A DNA stretch of 64,000 nt from Clostridia bacterium (GTDB taxonomy: Bacteria > Bacillota > Clostridia > Oscillospirales > Acutalibacteraceae): positions 52,414 to 116,413 of the forward strand of contig JAFXGK010000025.1 of assembly GCA_017513245.1 (NCBI GenBank), given 5' to 3'. A model generated the notes under the pieces. The model was given only the letters and a program-made list of their open reading frames with translations, was not told where the DNA came from and did not search any database. Positions 5,427 to 64,000 of the stretch are shown here, piece by piece; the first letter of the stretch is position 1; every line of letters starts with the position of its first letter. A program made the position numbers and the translations under genes.

Positions 5427-6348
5427 TAAACGTTTTCATTTTGTAAAAAGCCTTCGCATTCCGCTTATCGCTTATGCAGTGATTATCTGCGTTGCGCTGA
5501 TTGTTGGTATTGTTTTTGGCGTAAATCTTTCTATTGACTTTAAGGGTGGTACCCGTATTACCTACACCTATACCGGCGAGATCAATGCCTCGACAGCCGA
5601 AAAAGCTATCGAAAAGGCTCTTGACGGTAAGGACGTAACCGTTAGCCAGAGCGCTTCAATGACCGGCAACACCACAAAACTGGTTGTTTCCCTCGTTGGC
5701 GATCAGGCCCTCTCTACTGAATCTCAGCAGGCAATTATCACAGCTCTTCAGAAGGAGTTTAAAGACAACAACGTTACCCTTGGCGAATCTCAGGCAGTTA
5801 GCCCCTCGCTTGCAGGCAGTTTCTTCGCAAAGGCTTTATTTGCAGTAGTTCTTGCAGCTGCACTCGTTGTTGTATACGTTGGAATTCGCTTCAGAAGAAT
5901 CGGTGGCGTATCGGCCGCAATAACCGCTTTGGCAGCGCTTGTGCTCGATGTCTGTGCCGCCTTTGCAGCTTGCACGGTTTTCCGTCTGCAGATTGATAAC
6001 AACTTTATGGCTGTTGTTCTTCTGCTCCTCGGTTACTCTCTTAACGATACAATCGTTATCTACGACCGTATCAGAGAGAATCGCAAGACCTCGCCCGACG
6101 GTGAGCTTGAGGAAATTGTTGACGTAAGTATTACTCAGGTTATGCGCAGAACAATCTTCACAACCCTTACAACCTTTATCGCAGTTCTTACAATCCTCAT
6201 TGTATCGGAAATCTGCGGTCTTACAACACTTCGCACTTTCGCTATCCCGATGATATTCGGTATTCTTTCGGGCTGCGTATCTTCTATGTGTGTTTCCGGT
6301 CCGCTTTGGGTTAAGTGGTGCAACTTCGTTAAGGCAAAGAAAAAGTAA
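5419..6348 (+). CDS. secF: protein translocase subunit SecF
   Basis: 309 residues from MTNKRFHF. GGAGG (5406-5410) sits 8 bases before this ATG, so the GTG nine bases upstream is rejected. The first membrane helix (about 13-36) is followed by the hallmark DFKGGT (40-45), then a P1 domain and a five-helix RND block containing GYSLNDTIVIYDRIRE (205-220). It forms the SecDF complex with the product of the overlapping upstream gene. A strong terminator follows within 30 bases, defining a two-gene operon. Confidence 0.96.
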   Translation: MTNKRFHFVKSLRIPLIAYAVIICVALIVGIVFGVNLSIDFKGGTRITYTYTGEINASTAEKAIEKALDGKDVTVSQSASMTGNTTKLVVSLVGDQALSTESQQAIITALQKEFKDNNVTLGESQAVSPSLAGSFFAKALFAVVLAAALVVVYVGIRFRRIGGVSAAITALAALVLDVCAAFAACTVFRLQIDNNFMAVVLLLLGYSLNDTIVIYDRIRENRKTSPDGELEEIVDVSITQVMRRTIFTTLTTFIAVLTILIVSEICGLTTLRTFAIPMIFGILSGCVSSMCVSGPLWVKWCNFVKAKKK

Positions 6349-48286: not shown

Positions 48287-49075
48287 TTACGGGAAACAAT
48301 GGCAGTCTAAAATCACAAAGCAGTCATCGTCCTTAAGTTCTTCATCCATAAACTTTTCATAGTTTTCAAGATAGGCTTGTTGTGCTGCTTCTTCTTGATT
48401 TTCAGGTAAATCTTCAAATCTTCCACTCATAACAATCTTTTCAAATTCCGCCCAAGCATCATTATCATCATGCCATACACCTTTTGTGTCAATATAGGCA
48501 TCTGGCGGCATCATTGCACGCCCAAACTGTATGCCCAAACGCTCAACCCACTCACTAAAGGTTTCGTTATTTTTTAAAAACAACGATTTATCTTCTCCTG
48601 CATAAAGATCACCATTTTTGATTTCATAACCATCTGGTAAACTATCTCCAAGACGAGGGTCTCTATTAAGAACAAGTTCCAAGAATTTGAAAGTTTTATA
48701 TTGATCTAATCTTGAAATCGCATCCCACGCAATAGCCTTCTTCAATCCGGCATTGATGGGAATATACTCAACATCATCAACAAAATAAGGTCCACGCTGA
48801 CCATTGTTGATTATTGCATCGTATTGGTCAAAAAGTTGGTATGCAAACAATCCGTTTTCAGTAAGTAATACATTTTCTGTACCCTTAACCGCTCCAACTG
48901 CACCTTCCCAACGTCCACCAATCACATACCAATCACACTTAATATTTTCTTCTTTAGCTGTTTCCTCAACATATTTTTTCATAGTTTTCTCAACATATGC
49001 TGAAATGTTTTCGAGGCAAACATCTCCCTTTAATTTATTGGCAGATATGCCCATATACACTGTTTTGTGGCTCAT
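48287..49075 (-). CDS. unknown protein with WYVIGGRWEG motif (last gene of accessory operon)
   Basis: 262 residues from MSHKTVYMGISAN; AGAAGGTATCAAA precedes this ATG, so the longer in-frame start is rejected. The DWYVIGGRWEG segment (about 45-55) is a motif I have seen in several uncharacterised bacterial proteins. The rest is soluble, rich in Asp/Glu, with a helical acidic C-terminus (ENQEEAAQQAYLENYEKFMD). No membrane helix and no recognisable catalytic site. It is 34 bases after the HIRAN-like gene and directly before the operon terminator. Function unknown. Confidence 0.7.
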   Translation of the reverse strand: MSHKTVYMGISANKLKGDVCLENISAYVEKTMKKYVEETAKEENIKCDWYVIGGRWEGAVGAVKGTENVLLTENGLFAYQLFDQYDAIINNGQRGPYFVDDVEYIPINAGLKKAIAWDAISRLDQYKTFKFLELVLNRDPRLGDSLPDGYEIKNGDLYAGEDKSLFLKNNETFSEWVERLGIQFGRAMMPPDAYIDTKGVWHDDNDAWAEFEKIVMSGRFEDLPENQEEAAQQAYLENYEKFMDEELKDDDCFVILDCHCFP

Positions 49076-49109
49076 TTTGATACCTTCTCTTTCTTTAAGT
49101 AAATCATAA

Positions 49110-50585
49110 TTATCTGAATAAATTGTACTCTGTGATGACATCGGATTCTGCTTTTTCCAAATCGGATGTCACGATGGTGCGGATTTCCATTACAAGGGTG
49201 GAATCATCCTTTGCAACAGCGCATAGAACATACATAGATGCGTCTTTTTCCATACAGAAAAGAGAGGCTACTTGCGTAACACGCTTTGCATATAGTGTTC
49301 CGTTTTTCTTTTTGGGAGCGGCATCAATAATTTTGGCTAAAACCGCTTCCTCACTCAAAAGAGAAACAACTTTTGCAAACAACTTCACTCTATGTCCAAT
49401 TTGTTCTATATTCAGTTGCTCTGCATCATCAGACACTTCGTAAAGGTATTGCTGATATTCTCCGATACCATTCATTTCTAAATTGCCGTTAACCGCACTT
49501 GCTGGGTCATAAAAAGTTTCTGCTGCTTCGTTCCCGCATAACGGAGTTTCAAACTTTTGGGCAATTTCCTTCATTTTCTTCTTGGCTTGAACCTTAACAT
49601 TTACCGTTTTGCCGTTAGCAGAAACCGCAATGGTAGCATCCTTAGGAATCACAAACTCTTTGCCGTTCCAGATGCCTTCATAAAAACCGGTTCCGATGTC
49701 ATCAATTTGTCCATAACTGAAAGCAACATCATCAGACCCACCAACAGTCTTCGTGGAAGTATTGTTCTTAGGTTTGTCTTCTTCCTCGTCCTCTAAGGGT
49801 TCAACCTTAAACTGGATATGGACAGAAACAACTGCTGTTTGACATCTGGGTGCACGTATAGATTGAGGAATTACATTTTGAATAACTACCGTATATTCCT
49901 TTTCACCGGCGTCGATAATCGGAGCCATAATTTCTGCCGACTTATCGTCGAGCAAACCAAGAGAACCTGCTTCAGATAAGACTTCCACCTTGTTCTTATA
50001 GGTTTTATCGCTCGTATCGTGAGCAAGTTTAACGGAATCGCCCTTCTTCACAGTTTCAATCCGCTGGGTTCTACCTTCAAATCGCGTTTCAGTCAGGAAG
50101 ATTTCCTCTTCCAAGCCTTCATTCTCCAAAAGTTTCTTAAACACGAACTTTCGGCCTTCCTTAACTCGCTCGATACCATTGCGCTTGAGTATGTTTAATT
50201 CTTTTGCATTAAATGCAAAATGATTTCTGTAACTGAGACATTCAATCAAATCAGAAATATTCGTTTCAAAACAGTATTCAGAATTATTATGATACTTGTC
50301 ATGTACACCATAACCTGCGGAATATACGATATATGCGTACGGATCCACATTAATATTGGTTGTGTCTGCGATAATAATGCCGTCCTTGCCTAAGGTTTCA
50401 GCCAGCGCAGAAACAATTCCATGGAGTTCGTCTTCTACGCAGAACCAGTCGTCTAAAACAAACGATGTGCAACCTTCCTCTGTTAGACCGGCTAATCCAA
50501 ATTCTGCATCATCTACATCTTTGAACTTTTCCCAGACCGAAGGTTCTGTGACTTTAATATGAATTCTGGAGCTATATTGTGACAT
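49110..50585 (-). CDS. HIRAN-like domain protein, 491 residues
   Basis: Soluble protein. Residues about 165-258 (FLTETRFEGRTQRIETVKKG, then DSVKLAHD, KVEVLSEAGSLGLL and AEIMAPIIDAGEKEYTVVI) resemble a HIRAN domain: the FEGRxxxI..(L/V)..GD.v.L opening, a V-x-V strand, a G.LG turn and a final a.ll..G. HIRAN domains bind DNA ends in HLTF/Rad5 and occur alone in bacteria. A short acidic linker (EDEEEDKPKN) separates a second half with IGTGFYEGIWNGKEFVIP, and a C-terminal helical region. The N-terminal 150 residues are unrecognised. Gene starts 2 bases after the LRR gene stop. Confidence 0.62.
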   Translation of the reverse strand: MSQYSSRIHIKVTEPSVWEKFKDVDDAEFGLAGLTEEGCTSFVLDDWFCVEDELHGIVSALAETLGKDGIIIADTTNINVDPYAYIVYSAGYGVHDKYHNNSEYCFETNISDLIECLSYRNHFAFNAKELNILKRNGIERVKEGRKFVFKKLLENEGLEEEIFLTETRFEGRTQRIETVKKGDSVKLAHDTSDKTYKNKVEVLSEAGSLGLLDDKSAEIMAPIIDAGEKEYTVVIQNVIPQSIRAPRCQTAVVSVHIQFKVEPLEDEEEDKPKNNTSTKTVGGSDDVAFSYGQIDDIGTGFYEGIWNGKEFVIPKDATIAVSANGKTVNVKVQAKKKMKEIAQKFETPLCGNEAAETFYDPASAVNGNLEMNGIGEYQQYLYEVSDDAEQLNIEQIGHRVKLFAKVVSLLSEEAVLAKIIDAAPKKKNGTLYAKRVTQVASLFCMEKDASMYVLCAVAKDDSTLVMEIRTIVTSDLEKAESDVITEYNLFR

Positions 50586-50587
50586 GG

Positions 50588-53500
50588 TTATTCTCCTTTC
50601 TTGGCATTCTTCTTCACATATGCTTCGTACTTAGCTTTCGCTGCATCCGACAAATCGTAGGGATACTCCAAGCGATATTGTGCAACTTGCAGTTTGTGCT
50701 CAGCACCTCTAATTTTAGAGAAGAATTCATCCAATTGAGCAAATGCAAAGGTTGCGTTATGTCCCCATGCAGAAGACAGGAAGCAATAATACTGTCTCTG
50801 GGAACCATCTGCACCCATCCAGACTTTGTACTTCACTTCATCGGTATCTGCAGATTTTACTACGATTGTGTAATTGACCCACTTATGATTTGCCGCGCAC
50901 TCCCACATTGCATTAGCTGGTCCCATACCAATGTATCCAACCAAGGAATTGGGACGACCATTCATGGTATCGATTGCTTTGTCGGCAGCCTTTGCTTCAG
51001 GGTCGATAGTATCGTAAACTTCAATCTCAGGCACGCAAGAGAATGCACCCCATCCCAATGTGCGGACGGATTTGGGAAGCGAAATCTTTTTAATCCCCGT
51101 TCCGGCAAATGCTTCCTCACCTATGTGGATAACAGTTTCAGGAAGCACCAACTCTTTTATACCGGTTTTATTAAAGGCTCTTGCACCAATCTCACGCAGG
51201 TCAGTTGCGAAAGTAACCTTTTTCAGTTTTTTGCATTCGCTAAATGCATAATCCGCAATTTTACTGCACTCGCCTTCAAAGACCACTTCGATCAAAGACG
51301 TGCAATTTGCAAAAGCACTATTCCAAGCATCAACAGAACCCTTGAACACAATTCTCTTGATGTTACTGCAACTGTTTGCACCACTGATTTTTGTTACTGT
51401 GGCGGGAACTACCAGTTCCTCAATGTTTGCATTGGCGGGAATCAGAAGGATCTCTGTCATTGCCTTATTGTAGAGTACATTGTTAACAGCACAATAGTTC
51501 CGGTTGTTGTCAGCGACAGTAATTGCGGTCATTTTGGACTTTTGGCGGTCCCAATCTCTAATGGAGAATGCACTCGGCGAAAGCTCTGTGACAGTGGACG
51601 GAATATGTACACTGTCCAAAGCATCACAGCCCGTAAATACATCATAGTCAATCGTGGTCAAACCCTCAGGCAGGTTGATTATTTTCAAAGCATTTCTTCC
51701 ACTGAAGGCAGCAGAAGCCAGCTTCTTGATGGAAGACGGCAACACGATTTCTTCAAGTTTGTCCACGGCCTTTCCATAGGAATAGGTACGGAATGCGCCT
51801 TCGCCAATTACTTCAACACCTTCAGGAACCTTAAACACGGATTGCTCGCCACTATACTTTGTCAGGGTATTGCCAATAATGATATATTCTTGATTCTGTT
51901 CATAGGCGGTGCCGTAGATTGCATTGCGTCCAACCTCTTGTACACGCTCCATGCCAACAATTTCAGCAAGAGCCCTACAACAAGAAAATGCCTGTTCTCC
52001 CAAAATACGAATATTTTGAGATAGAATGATCTTTTTAATGGCAGCGCAATTTTCAAATGCCTTGTCAGAGATCACTTCGGTTGCAGCGGGGACGGCATAC
52101 TCTTCAACAGAATAATCAATCAACTGCAGCAAAGTTTTTTGGTCCTTCGAATACAACGCAATACCATCAGACCAAAAATGATTGTTGCCTTCAGCAACAC
52201 TGATGTTCGGAAGATTATCATGTGTCTTTCCAACGGGTCTAAACTTTTTGAGTTGTACAATCTCTTTGACGTTCTCAGGAATACTCAGCGCCATAATCTC
52301 ACTGGGAATCTCGCCATAATCGAAACCATAACTCTCGTCCAATTCAAAAAGTACAACCTTTGTGACCGGCTTATTGCGGTAAGTGTTGGGGACGATCACT
52401 CGGTCGGTGGGCTCCAAGCCCTCTTGCAGAACGGCTTTATAACCTTTACCTTCGGCGACCATTTTCAGATAGTCAGCACCTTCGCCGTTAATTACGATTC
52501 TGGGACGAGTGCCGTCTTCGTACTTATAGGTTGTTATGAACTGTTCGGCATAACTGTCCGGTTCCACAACTACTACGAGATCATCCCCATGCAGGTAGAG
52601 ATCTTTGTATTCTTTTTCTTCATCAGAGAAAACCCAGGGACTAATTTCTTCCACAGAGGCAGGGAAAACAATTTTAGCAAGATTGGAATGACCAAACAAA
52701 ACGGACTGGCCAATTCTCTTAATGCCGTCGGAAATAATAATAGTTTCAATGCCGTAGCTCAACTGGCCAAACATGTTGGCACCCATTTCAACAACAGGCT
52801 GATCTCCCAACATCGCAGGGATCACAACAGTCGGACTACTTTTCTGCCCGTGAGAAGGCTCCAAGAATTGTGTAATACACAAGCCATCTGCTACTTTTTT
52901 GAAGGCGAACTGCTTCTTAATTTTCTTGATTTCGGGGGTGTCATTTTCGTTGGTAACAGAAATATCACCCTGAGGGCTCTTCATAACTCCCTGTACATAA
53001 TCAGTGAAGTAATAATTTGAAGCCACATATACTTCAATAGGTTCATCCCTTGTCACAGACTCATAAGCTTCTTCGCCGAATGCACAAGGATCAACGTCCT
53101 TTATATCGTTTTTAATGTACAGTTTTTTTATCTTACAGCTTTCAGGAAATGCATTTCTGACCAATTTGGTGATATTGGACGACAAGTGAAGCTCCTTAAT
53201 GCCTTGGACATTTGCAAATGCTGTACCAAAGTTTTCAATGGTTGCAGGCAGCTCGTATTTGTCTGCTTTTTTGCTTTCGGGAAAAGCTATCAGGGTCTTG
53301 ATGCTCTTATCAAACAGTACGCCATCTACATCGGTGTAATAAGCATTGTTCGGAGATACCGTGATTTTCTTAAGTTTCTTACAGCCAGTGAAAGCAGTTG
53401 CGTCAATAAAACTTACGGCAGGACCGATAACAATCTCCGTCAAAGCTTCGCATTTTGAAAATGCATTAACACCAATCTTTTCCAAGGTGTCCGGCAACTC

Positions 53501-54094
53501 GATTTTCTGCAGGCGCGCAAAAACACCAACAGTGTCATCATCATAGTCGAAATCAAAATCAAAGTTGAAATCAAAATCCTCATCGTCAAAATTCTCGTCA
53601 TCAAAATCGAATTCTTCTTCGGGACTATCATCAAAATTCTTTTGAGGTGTTGCAAATGCACAATCCGAAATTGCAATTGTGCCGTCGTTAATTATGACAT
53701 GACCGAGCATCTTGTTTTGACAGAAAAGCACAATGTATTTGCCTTGTTCGTTCACTTCATAGCAAATGTCATCATCCATAAAATACTTCGGATTTTCTTC
53801 GTGGATAGAATAACTAACCTTACCACCTAACACACCTGATTTGCCGGCAAGTATAATTTCTTTTACAGTGGAAGGAATGAGTATGCGAGCAAGCTTCTCC
53901 TCTCCGTTTATAAAAGATGAAAGACATTCTTCGTTAAAGCATTCGAGACCTTCGTTGAGAATCAGTTTCTTAATATTTTTGCAATCAGCGAATGCCTTGG
54001 GATCTATTGATTTAACTCCTTCCGGGATAGCAAGAACTCTAGCCTTGCCAGTGTATTGGGTCAATACACCATTTTCAACAATAAAATCATTCAT
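50588..54094 (-). CDS. large BspA-type leucine-rich repeat protein, cytosolic
   Basis: 1168 residues with many LRR_5 (BspA/TpLRR) repeats of the form IxxxAFxxCxxLxxIxLPxxLxxIG, for example KAFADCKNIKKLIL, NAFSKCEALTEIVIG, EAFAGTGIKKISLPKSV. Unlike secreted BspA proteins it has no signal peptide, membrane helix or anchor, so it should stay inside the cell. An Asp/Phe/Glu low-complexity tract (about 154-187) interrupts the early repeats. The last 120 residues (KVWMGADGSQRQYYCF, then a helical end KYEAYVKKNAKKGE) are not LRR. In the operon it lies 27 bases after the zinc-finger gene and 2 bases before the HIRAN-like gene. It may be a recognition or scaffold subunit; that is inference. Confidence 0.8.
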   Translation of the reverse strand: MNDFIVENGVLTQYTGKARVLAIPEGVKSIDPKAFADCKNIKKLILNEGLECFNEECLSSFINGEEKLARILIPSTVKEIILAGKSGVLGGKVSYSIHEENPKYFMDDDICYEVNEQGKYIVLFCQNKMLGHVIINDGTIAISDCAFATPQKNFDDSPEEEFDFDDENFDDEDFDFNFDFDFDYDDDTVGVFARLQKIELPDTLEKIGVNAFSKCEALTEIVIGPAVSFIDATAFTGCKKLKKITVSPNNAYYTDVDGVLFDKSIKTLIAFPESKKADKYELPATIENFGTAFANVQGIKELHLSSNITKLVRNAFPESCKIKKLYIKNDIKDVDPCAFGEEAYESVTRDEPIEVYVASNYYFTDYVQGVMKSPQGDISVTNENDTPEIKKIKKQFAFKKVADGLCITQFLEPSHGQKSSPTVVIPAMLGDQPVVEMGANMFGQLSYGIETIIISDGIKRIGQSVLFGHSNLAKIVFPASVEEISPWVFSDEEKEYKDLYLHGDDLVVVVEPDSYAEQFITTYKYEDGTRPRIVINGEGADYLKMVAEGKGYKAVLQEGLEPTDRVIVPNTYRNKPVTKVVLFELDESYGFDYGEIPSEIMALSIPENVKEIVQLKKFRPVGKTHDNLPNISVAEGNNHFWSDGIALYSKDQKTLLQLIDYSVEEYAVPAATEVISDKAFENCAAIKKIILSQNIRILGEQAFSCCRALAEIVGMERVQEVGRNAIYGTAYEQNQEYIIIGNTLTKYSGEQSVFKVPEGVEVIGEGAFRTYSYGKAVDKLEEIVLPSSIKKLASAAFSGRNALKIINLPEGLTTIDYDVFTGCDALDSVHIPSTVTELSPSAFSIRDWDRQKSKMTAITVADNNRNYCAVNNVLYNKAMTEILLIPANANIEELVVPATVTKISGANSCSNIKRIVFKGSVDAWNSAFANCTSLIEVVFEGECSKIADYAFSECKKLKKVTFATDLREIGARAFNKTGIKELVLPETVIHIGEEAFAGTGIKKISLPKSVRTLGWGAFSCVPEIEVYDTIDPEAKAADKAIDTMNGRPNSLVGYIGMGPANAMWECAANHKWVNYTIVVKSADTDEVKYKVWMGADGSQRQYYCFLSSAWGHNATFAFAQLDEFFSKIRGAEHKLQVAQYRLEYPYDLSDAAKAKYEAYVKKNAKKGE

Positions 54095-54121: not shown

Positions 54122-54352
54122 TTACTTCATTTTTCTTGTTCCTTTGCAATTAGGATAATCGCTACAGCCAAGGAATTTACCGTATTTTCCTTCACGGATA
54201 TACATAGTACTTCCGCATAAGGGACAGTTTTCGGAAGACATATGTTCCATCTTCCACGCTTCTCGTTCGGCATGTTTTCTTTCATATTCTTTTTGTCGTT
54301 CCTCACGTTCGAGTTGCGACTGCATATATGCACACCATCCTGCGCTTCTCAT
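54122..54352 (-). CDS. small protein with topoisomerase-type C4 zinc finger
   Basis: 76 residues. A charged helical N-terminal half (REERQKEYERKHAEREAW) is followed by a Cys4 finger: C43, C46, C63 and C69 in CPLCGSTM...GKFLGCSDYPNC. This is the zf-C4_Topoisom pattern of topoisomerase I C-terminal fingers, which bind single-stranded DNA. As a free-standing finger it is probably a DNA-binding accessory. GGAGATAAGA precedes the ATG; 9 bases after the 71-residue gene. Confidence 0.8.
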   Translation of the reverse strand: MRSAGWCAYMQSQLEREERQKEYERKHAEREAWKMEHMSSENCPLCGSTMYIREGKYGKFLGCSDYPNCKGTRKMK

Positions 54353-54361
54353 TCTTATCTC

Positions 54362-54577
54362 CTATTCATTTAATTTCTCTTGCAAACGTTCTAAATCTGC
54401 TTGCGTAAAATTGTTAGGATCAATACCGCATTTGTGACAATGATAATCAAATGTACTACGGTCAATTTCGGTGAGACCGGTTGAAAGCAAAGATTCCGCA
54501 ACACGGTCAATATGTTCATCACGAATGCCGTTATAACCGGCATCATCCATTGCGGCTAATTGCCAAGGTTCAAACAT
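54362..54577 (-). CDS. 71-residue conserved-looking protein of unknown function
   Basis: A short soluble helical protein (MFEPWQLAAMDDAGYNGIRD..., then DRSTFDYHCHKCGIDPNNFT and a helical end). The HCHKCG stretch could be a metal ligand cluster, but only two cysteines and two histidines are close. The ATG is preceded by GGGAGGACAAAA. It lies 17 bases after the GIY-YIG gene. No family recognised. Confidence 0.65.
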   Translation of the reverse strand: MFEPWQLAAMDDAGYNGIRDEHIDRVAESLLSTGLTEIDRSTFDYHCHKCGIDPNNFTQADLERLQEKLNE

Positions 54578-54594: not shown

Positions 54595-55122
54595 CTAAAC
54601 CCTGCTACTTCCCGCAACAGGATTTAAGGTATTATGTAATCGTTTTTCTATTTCTCGCATAATTATAGATGAATATGGTCTATATTCGCTTTGCAAAGGA
54701 AAAGCGTATACTTTAATGCAATTTAAGACTTTTTTACGATTAGGAGACCCCAACTTTAAGCCAGTGCTTTCACCGGTTGTGTTAAAATGATCGGTCATTC
54801 TTCTATAAATTGAATCTCCAGACCCAACATATAAGCAATCGCCAATTTTGAGGTTCTTCTTTTTATAATCTTTAAATTTAGCCCCTCTAACATTATTCCA
54901 TTTGCGAACTTCATCAGTTGTAAGGATTACAGGAGTTTTAATTACAAAAATATACACTCCACATTTTCCCCATAATGCTCTTGGACGTTGTTGAATAGAC
55001 TCAAAAGTGTAAACTGTATCAAAAAAATCAGATGTAAACGCAAGACCTTCGCTAATGTGTTTTACAATATTATTTGATTCATCGTTCAAGGCTGTAGATA
55101 ATGTTTTGAGCAATTCAATCAC
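54595..55122 (-). CDS. GIY-YIG nuclease-like protein
   Basis: 175 residues from a GTG at 55122, chosen because AAGGCGG lies 8 bases upstream and any earlier start is inside the SbcC-like gene; GTG 55131 is an alternative. The catalytic elements expected for the GIY-YIG fold are in order: GVYIF (55-59), CLYVGSG (96-102), R107, H112 and a late glutamate E157 in MREIEKRLHNTLNP. The spacing is longer than in UvrC because of an insert (about 65-92). The fold implies metal-dependent DNA strand cleavage. Its start lies 13 bases after the SbcC-like stop. Confidence 0.75.
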   Translation of the reverse strand: MIELLKTLSTALNDESNNIVKHISEGLAFTSDFFDTVYTFESIQQRPRALWGKCGVYIFVIKTPVILTTDEVRKWNNVRGAKFKDYKKKNLKIGDCLYVGSGDSIYRRMTDHFNTTGESTGLKLGSPNRKKVLNCIKVYAFPLQSEYRPYSSIIMREIEKRLHNTLNPVAGSSRV

Positions 55123-55135
55123 ACAACACACCGCC

Positions 55136-57508
55136 TTAGAATATGATTTTATTTCCGCCCAGCATATCGAGATAACCTTCTCTGCAGGTAAGGAAAATAA
55201 CCTGATGCTGTTTGGCACATTCCTTAATGAGCTCGCAAGACTGTGCAGTACGATCAGCATCCATATCGGTGAACGGATCGTCAAAGACTATCACACCGCC
55301 GCCATCGGGGAACAGATGGTCAAGCACAGCAAGACGGAAAGCAAGAGAAACGGTTTCCTTGGTGCCTTCGGACAATTTGCCGTAATCAAGCAACTTATTA
55401 TCGCTGTAAATGTTCATATTCAACTTATCAGCTTCTGGGAACTCTGAAGAAACCTTGCCGCTGGAGATAATGCTGAGATAATGAGTAAAGCGGTCGGCAA
55501 TATCCTGCATCGGATTGTCGTGTATATTTTCTTTTTGAGCCTTGAAAACTTCTGCAATATGGAGCCAATGGTTAAGTAACGTTTTTTGTTCCTCAAAGAC
55601 ACGCTCTGCTTTTTCTACATCGGCTATAGGGTCGCCGTTGATGTTTTCTTTATAGCTTTCCAGTTTGCTTGCGGCAGCAGTCTTAGAAGTAAGTGCTGTT
55701 TCACGAAGACTTTGCTTGAATTTTAAGTCATTCTGTAAACTTTCAAGATGAGCATCGGGATCGGTAATGCTGAGATATTCAATAGGAATATCCTCCGCAC
55801 CCGAAACGGAGTCTTTTGCCTTTTTGAGTTCGACTTCTAAATCAAAGGCTTTAGCTTTGAGATCGTTTACACTGCTATATTCGGTCACATAACCGTCCAC
55901 AATAGTTTCTTTTGCGGTAATAAATCTTGCAATATCATTACTGCCACAAACAGAGAGTATATCGCTGTCAATTTCCTCTTTTGTGCGAACAGCTACAGTA
56001 ATTCCGGTTGCTGCGGCTTCAAGCTCCTCGTAGGAAATAGAACCCAAGAGTATGACCAAGCGGCTATTGGCAGTATCTATTTTAGACTTGGTATCATTAA
56101 TAGTTTTAGCCAACTGCTCAAGTTCTGCTAAGTTTTCCACCTTGTATCTGCCGAGAATTTTGTCAACAATCTCTTGCTGTTCGGCAAGCTGTTCTTCAAT
56201 GGCGTTAACATCTACGTCTGCAGGAGACAATTGCATTTCCATAACACCGGGAACAGTAATTTTTACTGCTTCGGTAATAGGAGCGAATCCGTTTGATGCG
56301 TCTACTGTTTCACCTGTACGAACAGAGGTGATTTCAACATTATTTCCGCCGAGCATATTGATAGCGGCAGTAATGTTCATACCGCAAAGCTTGTTTTCAA
56401 GTGAATTGATACCACGCTGTGCAGTTTTGACCTGCATAATTTCAGCATCGGTTGGCTGATAAGGCGGAATATATTTTTTGAGTTCGGTAAGTTCTGCGTG
56501 AATTGTCTTGGCGGCTTCATATTTATCAAGCAAATCACGGCTTGCTTTTTCAGTTTGTAAAGCCTTTGCTTTTTCGAGATCTTCGGCAAGTTTTGGCCAG
56601 TTTGCTAAAACCTCTGCAATTTTCAAAAGCTCTTTATCAATGCGGTCGATAGTCTTTTTGCGCTCGCTTTGAACGGCAAGACGGCTTGCAAAGGTGTTGA
56701 ACTTGTTATATGCTTCCTCGGCAATGCGAGCGACATTATCCTTATCGGCATAATCATTTGCGGCACGGTCTGCCTCACGCTCCAAACGAGAAATTTCTTC
56801 AAGAACGGCTTTGGCATCTTCCAAGGCGTAATATGCTTTTAAGATTTCACCAAGTCCGTTAGACCAACGACCGGCCTTGCGAACGGGTGCTTCTCGGTCG
56901 AAATCCCAATGCTTACCGGCGATCTCATCAATTTTTGCCATAATTGCCTGCTCGATAGCATCCACCGAGATACCATCGCTTTCGGCAAAAGCTTGTGATA
57001 CGGCATCGGCAATTTCTTGTTTTGCATCGGTTTTCTTGGAAGCGTCCAAAATTGTCTGCAAAGAAACGTCGGTATTTCGTTGGGAAGAAAAGAGCATATC
57101 GGAGTAGACGCCCTCACCGTAAAGGAGAGCTTCTTTTAATATCTCATCAATTTTGCTTTGGTCACGGATAACACCGTCGGGTGTGGAAAGGGTGCAGCGG
57201 GAATCGGAGCCCCATTCTTTAGAGAGAGTGTAAGTACCATTCTCGGTTTCAAAAGTGATTTTGCCATCGGCAAAGTCGCCGGTGATATTACTACCTTTTT
57301 TAGCACCTGGAAAATATAAATCATAGAAATCCTTATCGCTTCTGCGATCAAGTCTTGCGTTTTGGAACAAGGTACGGGAAAGCAGATTTACGAGGGTACT
57401 TTTACCACTTTCGTTTTTGCCATAGATTACGTTGATTCCATCTGTGAAGGAAACGTTGCGGTCGCGAACGCCGGCAAATTGTGTGCAGGATATATTAGTG
57501 ATTTTCAT
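55136..57508 (-). CDS. SbcC/Rad50-like AAA ATPase
   Basis: 790 residues, shorter than canonical SbcC (about 1000-1050). Walker A is GKNESGKST (30-38); the ABC signature LSEGTKETVSLAFRLAVL begins at about 712; Walker B VIVFDD is at 739-744 with a D-loop FTDMDADR. Two long helical arms lie between, with a globular, Gly/Val-rich middle insert at about 370-450 (CGMNITAAINMLGGNNVEIT) in place of an obvious CxxC zinc hook. It should partner with the SbcD-like nuclease encoded just upstream (stop and start one base apart). Confidence 0.85.
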   Translation of the reverse strand: MKITNISCTQFAGVRDRNVSFTDGINVIYGKNESGKSTLVNLLSRTLFQNARLDRRSDKDFYDLYFPGAKKGSNITGDFADGKITFETENGTYTLSKEWGSDSRCTLSTPDGVIRDQSKIDEILKEALLYGEGVYSDMLFSSQRNTDVSLQTILDASKKTDAKQEIADAVSQAFAESDGISVDAIEQAIMAKIDEIAGKHWDFDREAPVRKAGRWSNGLGEILKAYYALEDAKAVLEEISRLEREADRAANDYADKDNVARIAEEAYNKFNTFASRLAVQSERKKTIDRIDKELLKIAEVLANWPKLAEDLEKAKALQTEKASRDLLDKYEAAKTIHAELTELKKYIPPYQPTDAEIMQVKTAQRGINSLENKLCGMNITAAINMLGGNNVEITSVRTGETVDASNGFAPITEAVKITVPGVMEMQLSPADVDVNAIEEQLAEQQEIVDKILGRYKVENLAELEQLAKTINDTKSKIDTANSRLVILLGSISYEELEAAATGITVAVRTKEEIDSDILSVCGSNDIARFITAKETIVDGYVTEYSSVNDLKAKAFDLEVELKKAKDSVSGAEDIPIEYLSITDPDAHLESLQNDLKFKQSLRETALTSKTAAASKLESYKENINGDPIADVEKAERVFEEQKTLLNHWLHIAEVFKAQKENIHDNPMQDIADRFTHYLSIISSGKVSSEFPEADKLNMNIYSDNKLLDYGKLSEGTKETVSLAFRLAVLDHLFPDGGGVIVFDDPFTDMDADRTAQSCELIKECAKQHQVIFLTCREGYLDMLGGNKIIF

Positions 57509-57509
57509 T

Positions 57510-58637
57510 TTATTTGCCCTCCTTCAAAGATTTCAAAAGCTCATAGGCAAGCTGTGCTTCCTTCGGCTCATCCAAAAGCGCATTCAGTAAACTTGCGGAA
57601 AAAGAGGTTTCGGGAAATTCGGACTCAATCAATTCTTTTGAAATGAGTTTGCTGAGAGCATAGTCATTGCAGGTGCCTTCCACGAAGCGAGAAAGCGCAT
57701 TATCGATGATTTCGTTTTTATCTTCGTATTCATCGGCGGATACAGCACCGGTTAGGATAATATCTACGACACTGTTTTCGGAAAGATCAGCAAGTTCACG
57801 ATTTAAGATATTTTCCATTTCTCCTGCAGTAACAGCGATATTCTTGCGATAGAAACGCAGATTACCCGATATCGTTTTCTTGGCACGAACATTTTTGTTC
57901 TCATCAATTTCAACGATGAAGCACTGACCTTCGGTGTTGCAGGAAACGTCGGTCTGAACGTGGGTACCCGCATTAAAGATTTTATTACCGCTTGTGAATT
58001 CTTCAGTTAAATTGCGAGGGAACGGAACGTGAGTATGGCCGATAAGCCAAGTATCAACGGGGATGCGCTCAAGTTCGGAACGCTTCATAAGGAAATATTG
58101 ACCTTCATTGTCAATGGTCTCGCCTTCAACAGCACCGTGGGCAATACCAATATGATAAACACCGTCATTTTCAATCTCGGTTTCTTTGATCCAACCAAGA
58201 TTGTTCTGACCTGGAGCAGAATGCAGTGATGTGCAAAGTGCAGGATAAAGAACAACATCTGCACCGTTTGCAGAAAGCTTATACGGACGGTACTCGGTAA
58301 GCAACATAATGTTATCGTGGGATGCCATAACATCCTTGAAATACTGCCATACCTTTACGTCTTTGTCATAATAATCATGGTTACCGGGAAGAACAACTAC
58401 AGTTCCATTAAAGCAAGACAGCGCATCCAAAAGAGTTTTTATCTCCCTCTTGGATACGCTGTATGTATTCTCAAACAAATCGCCCGTGATTACGAAAAGG
58501 GCGCAGTTTTCCTGATTAGCGATTTTAACCATACCTTCAAAAGCCGTAATTCTGCTGGAAGCAAGAACTGCCGCTTGTTCGTGGCTTGCATATTTCAAGC
58601 CGATATGGTTATCTCCGGTTACAAAGATTTTTAACAT
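57510..58637 (-). CDS. SbcD/Mre11-like metallophosphoesterase nuclease
   Basis: 375 residues from MLKIFVTGDNHIG; the longer in-frame start would lie in the recombination repeat. Calcineurin-like metal ligands appear in order: GDNH (8-11), GDLFE (52-56), GNHD (85-88), AHGAVEG (about 173) and GHTHVPF (about 208). The C-terminal 130 residues are helical and divergent from E. coli SbcD. With the SbcC-like ATPase it would form a DNA-end-processing nuclease. It is the first gene of the eight-gene operon and begins only 32 bases from the left inverted repeat of the invertible promoter. Confidence 0.87.
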   Translation of the reverse strand: MLKIFVTGDNHIGLKYASHEQAAVLASSRITAFEGMVKIANQENCALFVITGDLFENTYSVSKREIKTLLDALSCFNGTVVVLPGNHDYYDKDVKVWQYFKDVMASHDNIMLLTEYRPYKLSANGADVVLYPALCTSLHSAPGQNNLGWIKETEIENDGVYHIGIAHGAVEGETIDNEGQYFLMKRSELERIPVDTWLIGHTHVPFPRNLTEEFTSGNKIFNAGTHVQTDVSCNTEGQCFIVEIDENKNVRAKKTISGNLRFYRKNIAVTAGEMENILNRELADLSENSVVDIILTGAVSADEYEDKNEIIDNALSRFVEGTCNDYALSKLISKELIESEFPETSFSASLLNALLDEPKEAQLAYELLKSLKEGK

Positions 58638-58669: not shown

Positions 58670-58690
58670 ACATAATCCGCATTATGTAAT
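58670..58690 (+). repeat. left 21-bp inverted repeat (recombination site)
   Basis: Reads ACATAATCCGCATTATGTAAT less the final base in a 20-base view; exactly complementary to 58930-58950. Each copy contains an internal dyad CATAAT-CCGC-ATTATG, as expected for a tyrosine recombinase site with two arm sites around a short spacer. Confidence 0.85.
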
Positions 58691-58929
58691 AGACTCACAT
58701 ACAAAAATAACCCTTTTTGATTGTGGCAATGATATACCACATCAAAAAAGGCATAACAAAGCAAGCCTTTGCTGTATCGGTAAAGTAAAGGCTTTATTTG
58801 GTGCGCTATTTTTACGACAATTTCAAGCATAATCATACTTTTTCATTAAAGGGATTGTTTTTGTTGGAGAAATATGGTATAATACACTCGTTGATTTTTA
58901 ATCAATCAACAGAATTTAACTAACTATTG
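58691..58929. promoter_or_regulatory. invertible promoter segment (239 bp), OFF orientation in this assembly
   Basis: Segment between the inverted repeats. It holds the promoter TTGTTT (58855-58860), a 17-base spacer and TATAAT (58878-58883) pointing right, away from the sbcD-like operon, and a minus-strand terminator hairpin (58704-58750). No gene of any length is encoded. Inverting the segment would place the -10 box at about 58737-58742 on the minus strand, roughly 95 bases before the SbcD-like start. No other promoter is possible in the 32 bases between left repeat and operon. The switch is inferred from structure. Confidence 0.82.
58704..58750 (-). terminator. terminator inside the invertible segment
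   Basis: On the minus strand, CCTTTTTTGAT-GTGG / CCAC-A-ATCAAAAAGG followed by GTTATTTTTG. In this orientation it would stop leftward transcription, for example from the recombinase gene, before it reaches the operon. Confidence 0.65.
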
Positions 58930-58950
58930 ATTACATAATGCGGATTATGT
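58930..58950 (-). repeat. right 21-bp inverted repeat (recombination site)
   Basis: Exact reverse complement of 58670-58690. The dyad CATAAT-GCGG-ATTATG is present here too. The flanking bases differ from those of the left copy, so identity ends at 21 bp. Confidence 0.85.
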
Positions 58951-58954
58951 ACTT

Positions 58955-58980
58955 GCCGCCGTTTTCGGTGGCTATTTTTA
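58955..58980 (+). terminator. terminator just outside the right repeat
   Basis: GCCGCCG-TTTT-CGGTGGC (one G-T pair) followed by TATTTTTAT. It would stop rightward transcripts from the invertible promoter before they run antisense through the recombinase gene. Confidence 0.75.
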
Positions 58981-59823
58981 TATTATCAACCGCATATTTT
59001 CCATACGCTGACGGTGTTCGTTGCCGGTAGTGATAATATAAATTCGTGTAGTGTTGATACTGCTGTGACCGAGAATATCGGCGAGCTTGGCAATGTCCTT
59101 TTCGATGCCGTAGAAGGTTCGTGCAAATAGGTGTCGCAGATTATGGGGAAACACCTTTTGCGGATTTACCCCTGCTTGCACACAAAGATTTTTCATTTCA
59201 CGCCAAATGTTGGTTCGGCTCATCGACTTGCCACTTCGGGTTATGAAGATCGCACCGGTCGTAATCTTTTGCTCTGCTGCATAGCGGAGCAATTTCTTTT
59301 GCAGTTCACGAACAATAAATACCGAGCGTGTTTTTCCTTTAAGCGAAACAACTGCTTCACCGCACTTTACCGCTTCGACTGTGATATATTGCAGTTCACT
59401 GACACGAATACCGGTTCCGCATATCGTTTGGATCAGCAAATTCAAACGTTCGTTGCCTTTTTGCTTGGCGGTGTGAACCAACCGCATATATTCTGCTTTG
59501 GTCAGCTCTTTTTCTTCAGGACAGTAGATTTGACGTTGTAGCTTGATAGACTTCACCTTCAAATCCGACCATCCAAGAAATGAAAGTAGACTATTGATTG
59601 ATGCCAACATTGAATTAATGCTCCGTGCGGCATAGTTTTCGGAAAACAGATTGTTTTTATAGGCGATAACTGTTTCCTTTGTTATCTCCGCTTCGCCAAC
59701 ATAGGCGACAAACGCCCTTACATCACGGATATATTTTTCTACGGTATTTTCGCTTTTTTCCTCGCTTTTGAGATATACGGCAAACGCCGCTATTTGGGTT
59801 TCTGTTAAAATTCTTCCTTTCAT
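58978..59823 (-). CDS. tyrosine recombinase, candidate DNA invertase
   Basis: 281 residues, the compact XerC/D-like size. An N-terminal SAM-like core-binding domain (about 8-90) is followed by the catalytic domain with all expected residues: R140 (GTGIRVSEL), K162 (LKGKTR), H227 and R230 (PHNLRH), H253 (LGHSS) and the nucleophile Y262 (TTRIYI). GGAGGTAAATACG precedes the ATG. The stop lies 28 bases from the right inverted repeat, so it most likely inverts the adjacent promoter segment, as neighbouring tyrosine recombinases do at other phase-variable loci. It could alternatively be the integrase of the accessory region. Confidence 0.88.
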   Translation of the reverse strand: MKGRILTETQIAAFAVYLKSEEKSENTVEKYIRDVRAFVAYVGEAEITKETVIAYKNNLFSENYAARSINSMLASINSLLSFLGWSDLKVKSIKLQRQIYCPEEKELTKAEYMRLVHTAKQKGNERLNLLIQTICGTGIRVSELQYITVEAVKCGEAVVSLKGKTRSVFIVRELQKKLLRYAAEQKITTGAIFITRSGKSMSRTNIWREMKNLCVQAGVNPQKVFPHNLRHLFARTFYGIEKDIAKLADILGHSSINTTRIYIITTGNEHRQRMENMRLII

Positions 59824-63449: not shown

Positions 63450-64000
63450 ATGACTGAAAACAAACCGAAACTCACCGTTATAGACGGTGAAACCTTAATG
63501 GATACAAGACTGGAACCGACCAAGTTTTGTATCGACACTCTGCTGCCGCAAGGAATAACAATCCTCGGCGGCGCACCTAAAATCGGTAAATCGTGGTGGG
63601 TGCTGGATATTTGTATCCGCATCGCCAAAGGAGAAAGCGTGTGGAATATGCCAACTACCAAAGGCACAACGTTGTATCTTTGCTTGGAAGATACGCTCAG
63701 GCGTGTGCAAGAGCGACTGTGTTTAATCACAGATGATGTTCCTTCTAACGCTTTCTTTGCAACGGCGGCGCATACGCTTTCCGAAGGTCTCTGCGATGAA
63801 ATACGTGCGTTTGTAAAAGAGCATCCCGACACCGTTCTCGTTGCAATCGACACTTTTCAGATCGTGCGTAACGGCGGTGTGGATACCTCTTATGGTAACG
63901 ACTACGATGAAATCCGTCAGATGAAGCAGTTGGCAGACGAGCTTAATATCTCTCTTCTGCTGGTGCATCACCTTCGTAAGCAGGGCGACAGCGATCCGCT
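63450..64000 (+). CDS. RepA-like AAA ATPase (replicative helicase type), N-terminal part
   Basis: Runs off the right edge; 183 codons visible. AGGAGG lies 10 bases before the ATG. The product begins MTENKPKLTVIDGE, Walker A is GGAPKIGKS (40-48), Walker B is VLVAIDTFQIVR (about 127-138), and LLLVHHLRKQGDSDP ends the visible part. This is the AAA_25/RepA-like hexameric helicase family carried by clostridial conjugative and mobilisable elements and prophages. It supports a mobile-element origin for this end of the window. The gene is not interrupted within the window. Confidence 0.8.
   Translation, partial: MTENKPKLTVIDGETLMDTRLEPTKFCIDTLLPQGITILGGAPKIGKSWWVLDICIRIAKGESVWNMPTTKGTTLYLCLEDTLRRVQERLCLITDDVPSNAFFATAAHTLSEGLCDEIRAFVKEHPDTVLVAIDTFQIVRNGGVDTSYGNDYDEIRQMKQLADELNISLLLVHHLRKQGDSDP

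Follow-up and report, generated by a model that had tools for sequence, protein, structure and literature searches.

A predicted invertible promoter in a Clostridia bacterium is one copy of an apparently modular switch cassette

Described invertons and the window switch

Promoter invertons and their recombinases are known, and published invertons are mostly tied to surface genes. Those of gut Bacteroidota have repeat motifs other than the one described below, and some of them depend on master invertases. Here we analyse a candidate promoter inverton in a 64,000-nucleotide stretch of a Clostridia bacterium (assembly GCA_017513245.1, contig JAFXGK010000025.1), hereafter the window. In the window, a promoter-bearing segment between inverted repeats separates a tyrosine recombinase gene from an apparent eight-gene operon. 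The promoter invertons of gut Bacteroidota likewise have a promoter between inverted repeats that is flipped by a site-specific recombinase, although they belong to another phylum (as described in PMC7241687 and PMC11892184). Invertible promoters are also described for a Clostridia species, Clostridioides difficile (PMC9286219, PMC5903667). The larger finding of this study is that the window switch is one copy of what looks like a modular cassette.

The described set nearest to the window is inverton group 139 with invertase group 35. It comprises 33 invertons, 32 of them in Clostridia, and almost every one has a tyrosine recombinase close by; for its members in Intestinimonas butyriciproducens and Clostridium sp. 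D5, reads were reported to change orientation (PMC11892184). The window family shares with these groups a Clostridia host and a tyrosine recombinase next to the inverton, placed so that the inverton promoter cannot transcribe it, and the spacings implied by two quoted coordinates of group 139 (227 and 205 bp between repeats) fall inside our range of 191-353 bp (PMC11892184). Group 139 is probably the same family, a likeness drawn from host, recombinase and spacing and not from the repeat motif. Cargo swapping and mobilizable elements are not mentioned for group 139 in the available text of PMC11892184, the main text of which mentions terminators once, as a proposal for future work. Inverton group 145 resembles our family in having tyrosine recombinase, relaxase and MobC genes nearby, and its authors suggested horizontal spread. 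However, the group 145 invertons overlap the coding sequence of restriction subunit S, whereas the window family is a promoter switch (as described in PMC11892184). In the literature searched, which held few subscription papers and was available in part, no cargo swapping, flanking terminators or relaxase linkage was described for promoter invertons of Clostridia. The window enzyme also resembles the PsrA-type DNA invertases: a protein that a plasmid record of Streptococcus dysgalactiae names PsrA is 31.7% identical to it. The target of PsrA, in contrast, lies inside type I restriction specificity genes.

The features of the window switch are as follows.

58670..58690, plus strand: left (distal, cargo-side) inverted repeat and putative recombination site, core ACATAATCCGCATTATGT (repeat, core and family site searches)
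58930..58950, minus strand: right (proximal, recombinase-side) inverted repeat and putative recombination site (repeat, core and family site searches)
58691..58929, no strand: predicted invertible segment, 239 bp, OFF orientation (repeats and alignment to relatives)
58855..58883, plus strand: predicted promoter TTGTTT-17-TATAAT, with TGG before the -10, directed at the recombinase (OFF) (family promoter scoring)
58763..58795, no strand: internal hairpin AAGCCTTT/AAAGGCTT, some 72 bp in from the segment end that lacks the promoter (sequence reading and family statistics)
58712..58751, no strand: second hairpin, located in the segment at its cargo-side end, with TTATTTTT after it on the minus strand (sequence and whole-segment fold)
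58955..58980, plus strand: fixed terminator-like hairpin facing the recombinase (hairpin scan, family statistics and stem covariation)
58978..59823, minus strand: tyrosine recombinase, 281 aa, probable invertase (open reading frame (ORF), Pfam, homologue searches and structure alignment)

The repeats are 21 nt each, 100% complementary and 239 nt apart, confirming the original prediction, which had been made from the letters of the window alone. The exact core ACATAA-N6-TTATGT occurs in the window's own assembly (1.72 Mb, 91.5% complete) only at these two sites, and the reversed-pattern control had 0 occurrences there. The recombinase has Phage_integrase and SAM-like N domains (Pfam), and its R, K, HxxR, H and Y residues align with the XerC-like structure 4a8e; we take these residues to have the catalytic roles. 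The full set of residues claimed earlier was borne out; the gene ends 27 bases from the right repeat and not 28. In the promoter, TTGTTT at 58855 is followed after 17 nt by TATAAT at 58878, pointing rightward and away from the operon.

Our reading, to which we give a probability of about 0.87, is that the window holds a self-contained, insulated promoter inverton, a portable cassette caught OFF. We infer that the window recombinase is the catalyst, that transcription starts at the window promoter and that it ends at the hairpins. The recombinase would bind the dyad sites at 58670 and 58930, and its strand exchange over the 6-bp centre would turn the 239-bp segment around. In the OFF state, the promoter would fire at the 3' end of the recombinase gene and the transcript would stop at the 58955-58980 terminator, sparing the recombinase from antisense RNA, and the hairpins of the segment would block read-through from the recombinase into the operon. 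In the ON state, the same promoter would lie directly upstream of the metallophosphoesterase gene and drive the operon. What carries this reading is comparison with relatives at the sequence level, through the shared architecture, matched site centres, both orientations, an orthologous flip, an excess of hairpins, the independence of cargo and the linkage to relaxases.

Sites, orientation and hairpins across relatives

To survey the family, the recombinase was searched against 60 related genomes, 56 of which had some match (12 of these at E < 1e-80), and against a genome collection, from which the best 80 of 227 loci were kept. Matches weaker than 1e-30 or stopping before query residue 230 (e.g. 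L030) were dropped, as were L079 and L109 (the same contigs as L036 and L037) and shorter copies of refetched loci (L001-L005, L007-L011, L023 and L047). The working set after duplicate removal was 99 loci, the window included. L106, L041 and L044, whose best inverted repeat was unrelated, were left out of the segment counts. Many loci come from metagenome-assembled genomes of the same cohorts, and the counts are not independent.

Where downstream DNA exceeded 320 bp (79 loci), 72 showed a site pair, L095 with its unmatched centres among them. Among the 95 loci whose stop codon could be read, the arms alone revealed pairs in 68; the remaining 27 comprise 16 with at most 320 bp of downstream DNA, four paired by the repeat method (L026, L040, L076 and L081) and seven without a pair. 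The family site is the dyad ACATAA-N6-TTATGT, and the sites lie about 30 bp past the recombinase and about 240 bp apart, the spacing between repeats being 191-353 bp across all 71 segments. The N6 centre differs between genomes. Within pairs, the centres were equal when inverted in 66/68 cases and never matched directly, and centres of different loci matched in 56 of 2278 comparisons (2.5%). Of the two exceptions, L082 has a matched pair by the repeat method and L095 does not. Tyrosine recombinases with a 6-bp crossover need matching centres, and the pattern seen here, centres that vary between loci yet match inverted within pairs, is what such an enzyme would demand. At L037 (which is locus L003), three sites rather than two lie beside the recombinase and could give alternative segments.

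Both orientations occur in nature. Promoter scores alone first called the 71 segments as 56 OFF, 12 ON and 3 unclear. After L036 was re-called OFF from its own alignments and L073 and L098 were added by alignment, the final calls were 59 OFF, 11 ON and 1 unclear. With L036 as OFF, segment-segment alignments placed 373 pairs in the orientation predicted by their promoters, with 3 exceptions; before the re-call, 353 pairs agreed and 23 disagreed, 20 of the 23 involving L036. Another 34 aligned pairs in which a call was unclear were not counted. The flip is plainest between L036 and L048, two loci from goat metagenome-assembled genomes. They carry the same cargo (91% DNA identity over 2743 bp) and have recombinases in equal direction, while the segment alone runs the opposite way from one repeat to the other (78.8% over 278 bp). 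All five segments alignable to the window segment run in the same direction and are OFF, supporting the call that the window was captured in the OFF state. Promoter scores of at least 12.5 were found in 57/71 segments compared to 7.3% of shuffles, and the -10 was located 23-50 bp from the segment edge in 63/71 segments compared to 15% in shuffles. The prediction of an invertible promoter with an adjacent recombinase is thus supported by comparison, through the ON and OFF copies, the matched centres and the L036/L048 flip. Contigs end within 330 bp of the recombinase downstream in 11/78 loci and upstream in 3/78, a hint of assembly breaks from mixed orientation; repeats can cause the same, and we do not use this as proof.

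The same data bear on two alternatives. The window copy could be a relic, locked OFF after past flipping, or a fixed promoter could drive the operon and make the inverton irrelevant. We consider this quite unlikely: 59 of the 70 called segments (84%) are OFF and seven loci have no recognisable site pair, but an OFF excess is equally expected when OFF is the commoner state, and both sites of the window are intact, as are the reading frame of its recombinase and the -10 of its promoter. Also considered, and extremely improbable, is a mobile element whose integrase is this recombinase, with repeats that form no switch but are leftovers of attachment sites or a pair of terminators. Such an integrase would fit the mobilization genes found upstream in 18/99 loci and the homology between different-cargo loci that often stops at the distal site. 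However, the sites are inverted with matched centres, segments were found flipped, and a large serine recombinase lies upstream in 10/99 loci; the orthologous flip has already largely refuted the idea.

Inversion in trans by another recombinase, with the adjacent one incidental, is very unlikely. In C. difficile, RecV serves several switches and is needed for some but not all, the enzyme of one switch being unknown (PMC5903667, PMC9286219). In the window family, a recombinase of the family adjoins each site pair examined, as follows from the loci having been found by recombinase. The window's own genome also encodes a second recombinase of the same family, 67% identical (G000:C2:107042-107824), a possible source of activity in trans. 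Against this, the whole family keeps recombinase and sites side by side, and their spacing hardly varies. The reading frame of the second recombinase reaches residue 262 before the contig stops, and the missing sequence beyond it may conceal another switch. In another genome of the order (G042; L012, L024-L029 and L032), seven family recombinases and one 3' fragment were found, 6/7 recombinases lying within about 130 bp of a contig end.

Hairpins are in excess at two places in the family. Between the recombinase stop and the near repeat, a proximal terminator (a hairpin and T-run facing the recombinase, the T-run on the strand leaving the switch) was found in 33/65 spacers of at least 15 nt compared to 2.05 in shuffles, and the other strand of the same spacers had 0. 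Covariation of the proximal stem, scored on 47/68 spacers (those 25-30 nt long), gave 23 double-changed cells, against 8.2 for shuffled spacers; the stem pairs in 73.8% of cells, and scores drop when it is slid. Inside the segments, hairpins with T-rich tails were found in 32/70 and 33/70 segments on the two strands compared to 5.6 and 5.3, mostly 68-86 bp from the segment end opposite the promoter. At the position of the window's internal hairpin, the relatives have a bidirectional terminator-like hairpin, and the whole-segment fold of the window gave z = -3.56. The proximal hairpin would end a useless OFF transcript and the internal hairpin would keep the OFF state tight; such terminator-like hairpins would insulate the switch in about half of the loci.

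Several observations weigh against an insulated, portable inverton. The flip evidence is a comparison between genomes and no flip was seen within one strain, so flipping in the window strain itself is presumed. The window promoter is mediocre alone: its -35 agrees with the consensus at just 3/6 positions, a consensus sigma-70 scan of the window did not list 58855..58883, and its score was equalled by 7/500 dinucleotide shuffles of the segment. It becomes convincing only through its relatives, and the original description of a consensus promoter directed away from the operon stands for the promoter, its spacing and its direction, "consensus" being too strong. Site pairing is not universal, as the unmatched centres of L095 indicate, and no repeat pair was found in 7/79 loci (L074, L106, L108, L114, L126, L041 and L044). 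The proximal stem still pairs in 60.7% of cells when slid by -3, and about half of the loci are without simple terminator patterns. The window's own assembly (91.5% complete) had no relaxase (PF03432) match, and the AAA_25 gene at the right end of the window, upstream of the recombinase, was nearby in just two other loci.

Cargo genes and cassette boundaries

The cargo side of the window carries eight ORFs.

57510..58637, minus strand: cargo gene 1, metallophosphoesterase (SbcD/Mre11-like) (Pfam, family cut-offs)
55136..57508, minus strand: cargo gene 2, SMC/Rad50-like ATPase, 790 aa (Pfam; pairs with gene 1 in genomes G056 and G183)
54595..55284, minus strand: cargo gene 3, GIY-YIG domain protein, start uncertain (overlaps gene 2 as listed) (ORF list, Pfam)
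54362..54577, minus strand: cargo gene 4, 71 aa, no Pfam family (ORF list, Pfam)
54122..54352, minus strand: cargo gene 5, topoisomerase-type zinc ribbon, 76 aa (Pfam)
50588..54094, minus strand: cargo gene 6, BspA-type leucine-rich repeat (LRR) protein, 1168 aa (Pfam)
49110..50585, minus strand: cargo gene 7, HIRAN-domain protein, 491 aa (Pfam)
48287..49141, minus strand: cargo gene 8, 284 aa, no Pfam family (ORF list, Pfam)

The ORFs are co-directional and closely spaced, and the ATG of gene 1 at 58637 lies 32 nt off the left repeat. Both the ORFs and this distance agree with the earlier description of an eight-gene operon; that they form one operon is suggested by their spacing. The operon had also been called SbcD/SbcC-like. 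The likeness of the two lead genes holds, but family membership does not, with scores far under the cut-offs: the SbcD model gave gene 1 27.5 bits against a curated cut-off of 77.65, below what identifies an SbcCD nuclease. The metallophosphoesterase-SMC pair occurs in 3/245 sampled genomes of the order, the window's own included, and the other two carriers (G056 and G183) had no family recombinase and no exact core site on the fetched stretch. The BspA-type LRR protein (50588-54094) stands among DNA-processing genes within the same apparent operon.

Across the family, 65 of the 70 loci with a segment had at least one cargo gene by our cargo rule. The first cargo gene usually starts a few tens of bases past the far repeat, and first genes have no common family. 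SPFH proteins recur (12/65 first genes; one protein cluster from 14 loci). Cargo proteins were clustered (n = 247) and, beside the first-gene tallies, 29 of the 247 were scanned singly. Other cargo, in the part of the 247 that was scanned, includes collagen-like, LRR, dockerin/cohesin, pilus (SpaA, LPXTG), TIR-TPR, helicase, Eco57I-type methylase, protein kinase, histidine kinase and nonribosomal peptide synthetase (NRPS) proteins. The sole window gene to cluster with another locus was the LRR gene, with L097, and LRR-type matches to window gene 6 occur at other loci, L097 included. The window and L048 have recombinases that are 94.7% identical and zero shared cargo clusters. The switch is therefore not one for the SbcD/SbcC-like operon specifically, as had been proposed. 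A defence-only role for the cargo was considered and rejected: PADLOC matches were scattered over the 65 first genes (25 of 80 matched families listed), and no enrichment is claimed. PspA, tried as the name for the roughly 230-aa partner of the SPFH gene, was dropped, the single member tested (L060) having no Pfam match at 1e-5.

The cargo boundary was examined in 51 pairs that have the same orientation, recombinases of 84% identity or more and no cargo in common. In 21 of them, colinear homology stopped within 40 bp of the far repeat's outer edge; it stopped earlier in 29 and went beyond the edge in 1 (L116/L127; the cargo rule found no cargo for L116). In 6/8 shared-cargo pairs it ran more than 800 bp past the far repeat. 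A cassette that recurs with mostly unrelated cargo suggests a modular switch: recombinase, terminator and switch look like a unit, for which the SbcCD-like operon is one of many cargos. Published invertons favour surface genes. The present family appears to be a standard cassette with its own insulation, found before DNA-processing, restriction, TIR, SPFH, pilus, dockerin, collagen-like, kinase and NRPS genes. It may offer gut Clostridia and some mobilizable elements a general way to keep a costly cargo silent in most cells and expressed in few.

One conceivable but improbable source of the boundary is that the distal site is a docking point, where the recombinase rarely joins new operons to the outer edge in an integron-like collection of cargo. 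Mobilizable elements would then gather interchangeable phase-variable cargos as integrons gather cassettes. A third site at the far end of the cargo was not found in 10 kb on either side of the 68 paired loci, which weakens this idea. That scan gave eight extra sites with at most one arm mismatch (six downstream, two upstream); two extra sites (L082 and L111) share the centre but sit 35-37 bp past the distal site. A cheaper explanation of the boundary than docking is homologous recombination within the recombinase and repeats, which are conserved. The cassette makes the question of cargo swapping directly testable.

Mobile context

A relaxase gene lies upstream of and divergent from the recombinase in 18/99 loci, as do genes for a NikA/MobC-like protein (15/99) and ParB (15/99), and none of the three was found downstream within 10 kb. 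Relaxase was present in 13/55 loci with at least 5 kb of upstream DNA. A serine recombinase lies upstream in 10/99 loci and downstream in 2. These labels rest on one protein each. The relaxase counts suggest that the switch family is partly carried on relaxase-bearing mobilizable elements.

The window contig ends 4.2 kb upstream of the recombinase. Pieces of the upstream flank are 78-93% identical between the window and L048, compared to 70 and 75% for two long backbone stretches. Flank identity above backbone identity suggests that this flank was transferred, and the window's own copy may be mobile. The window contig stops within the AAA_25 gene (63450-64000) and the L048 contig starts within that gene too, which would suit a mobile-element gene present in several copies; the window's own assembly has only one AAA_25 copy.

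The cassette is also found on a contig classed as viral, the IMG/VR contig L156, which has a recombinase and a matched inverted site pair at 5835 and 6105. A relative of the cassette is present in a named strain as well, Merdimmobilis hominis An559 (L068). A Monoglobus pectinilyticus record (L160, NZ_OY725740.1) holds a 52% identical recombinase with two matched sites; it is labelled a plasmid, yet its listed genes include nusG, secE and rpmG.
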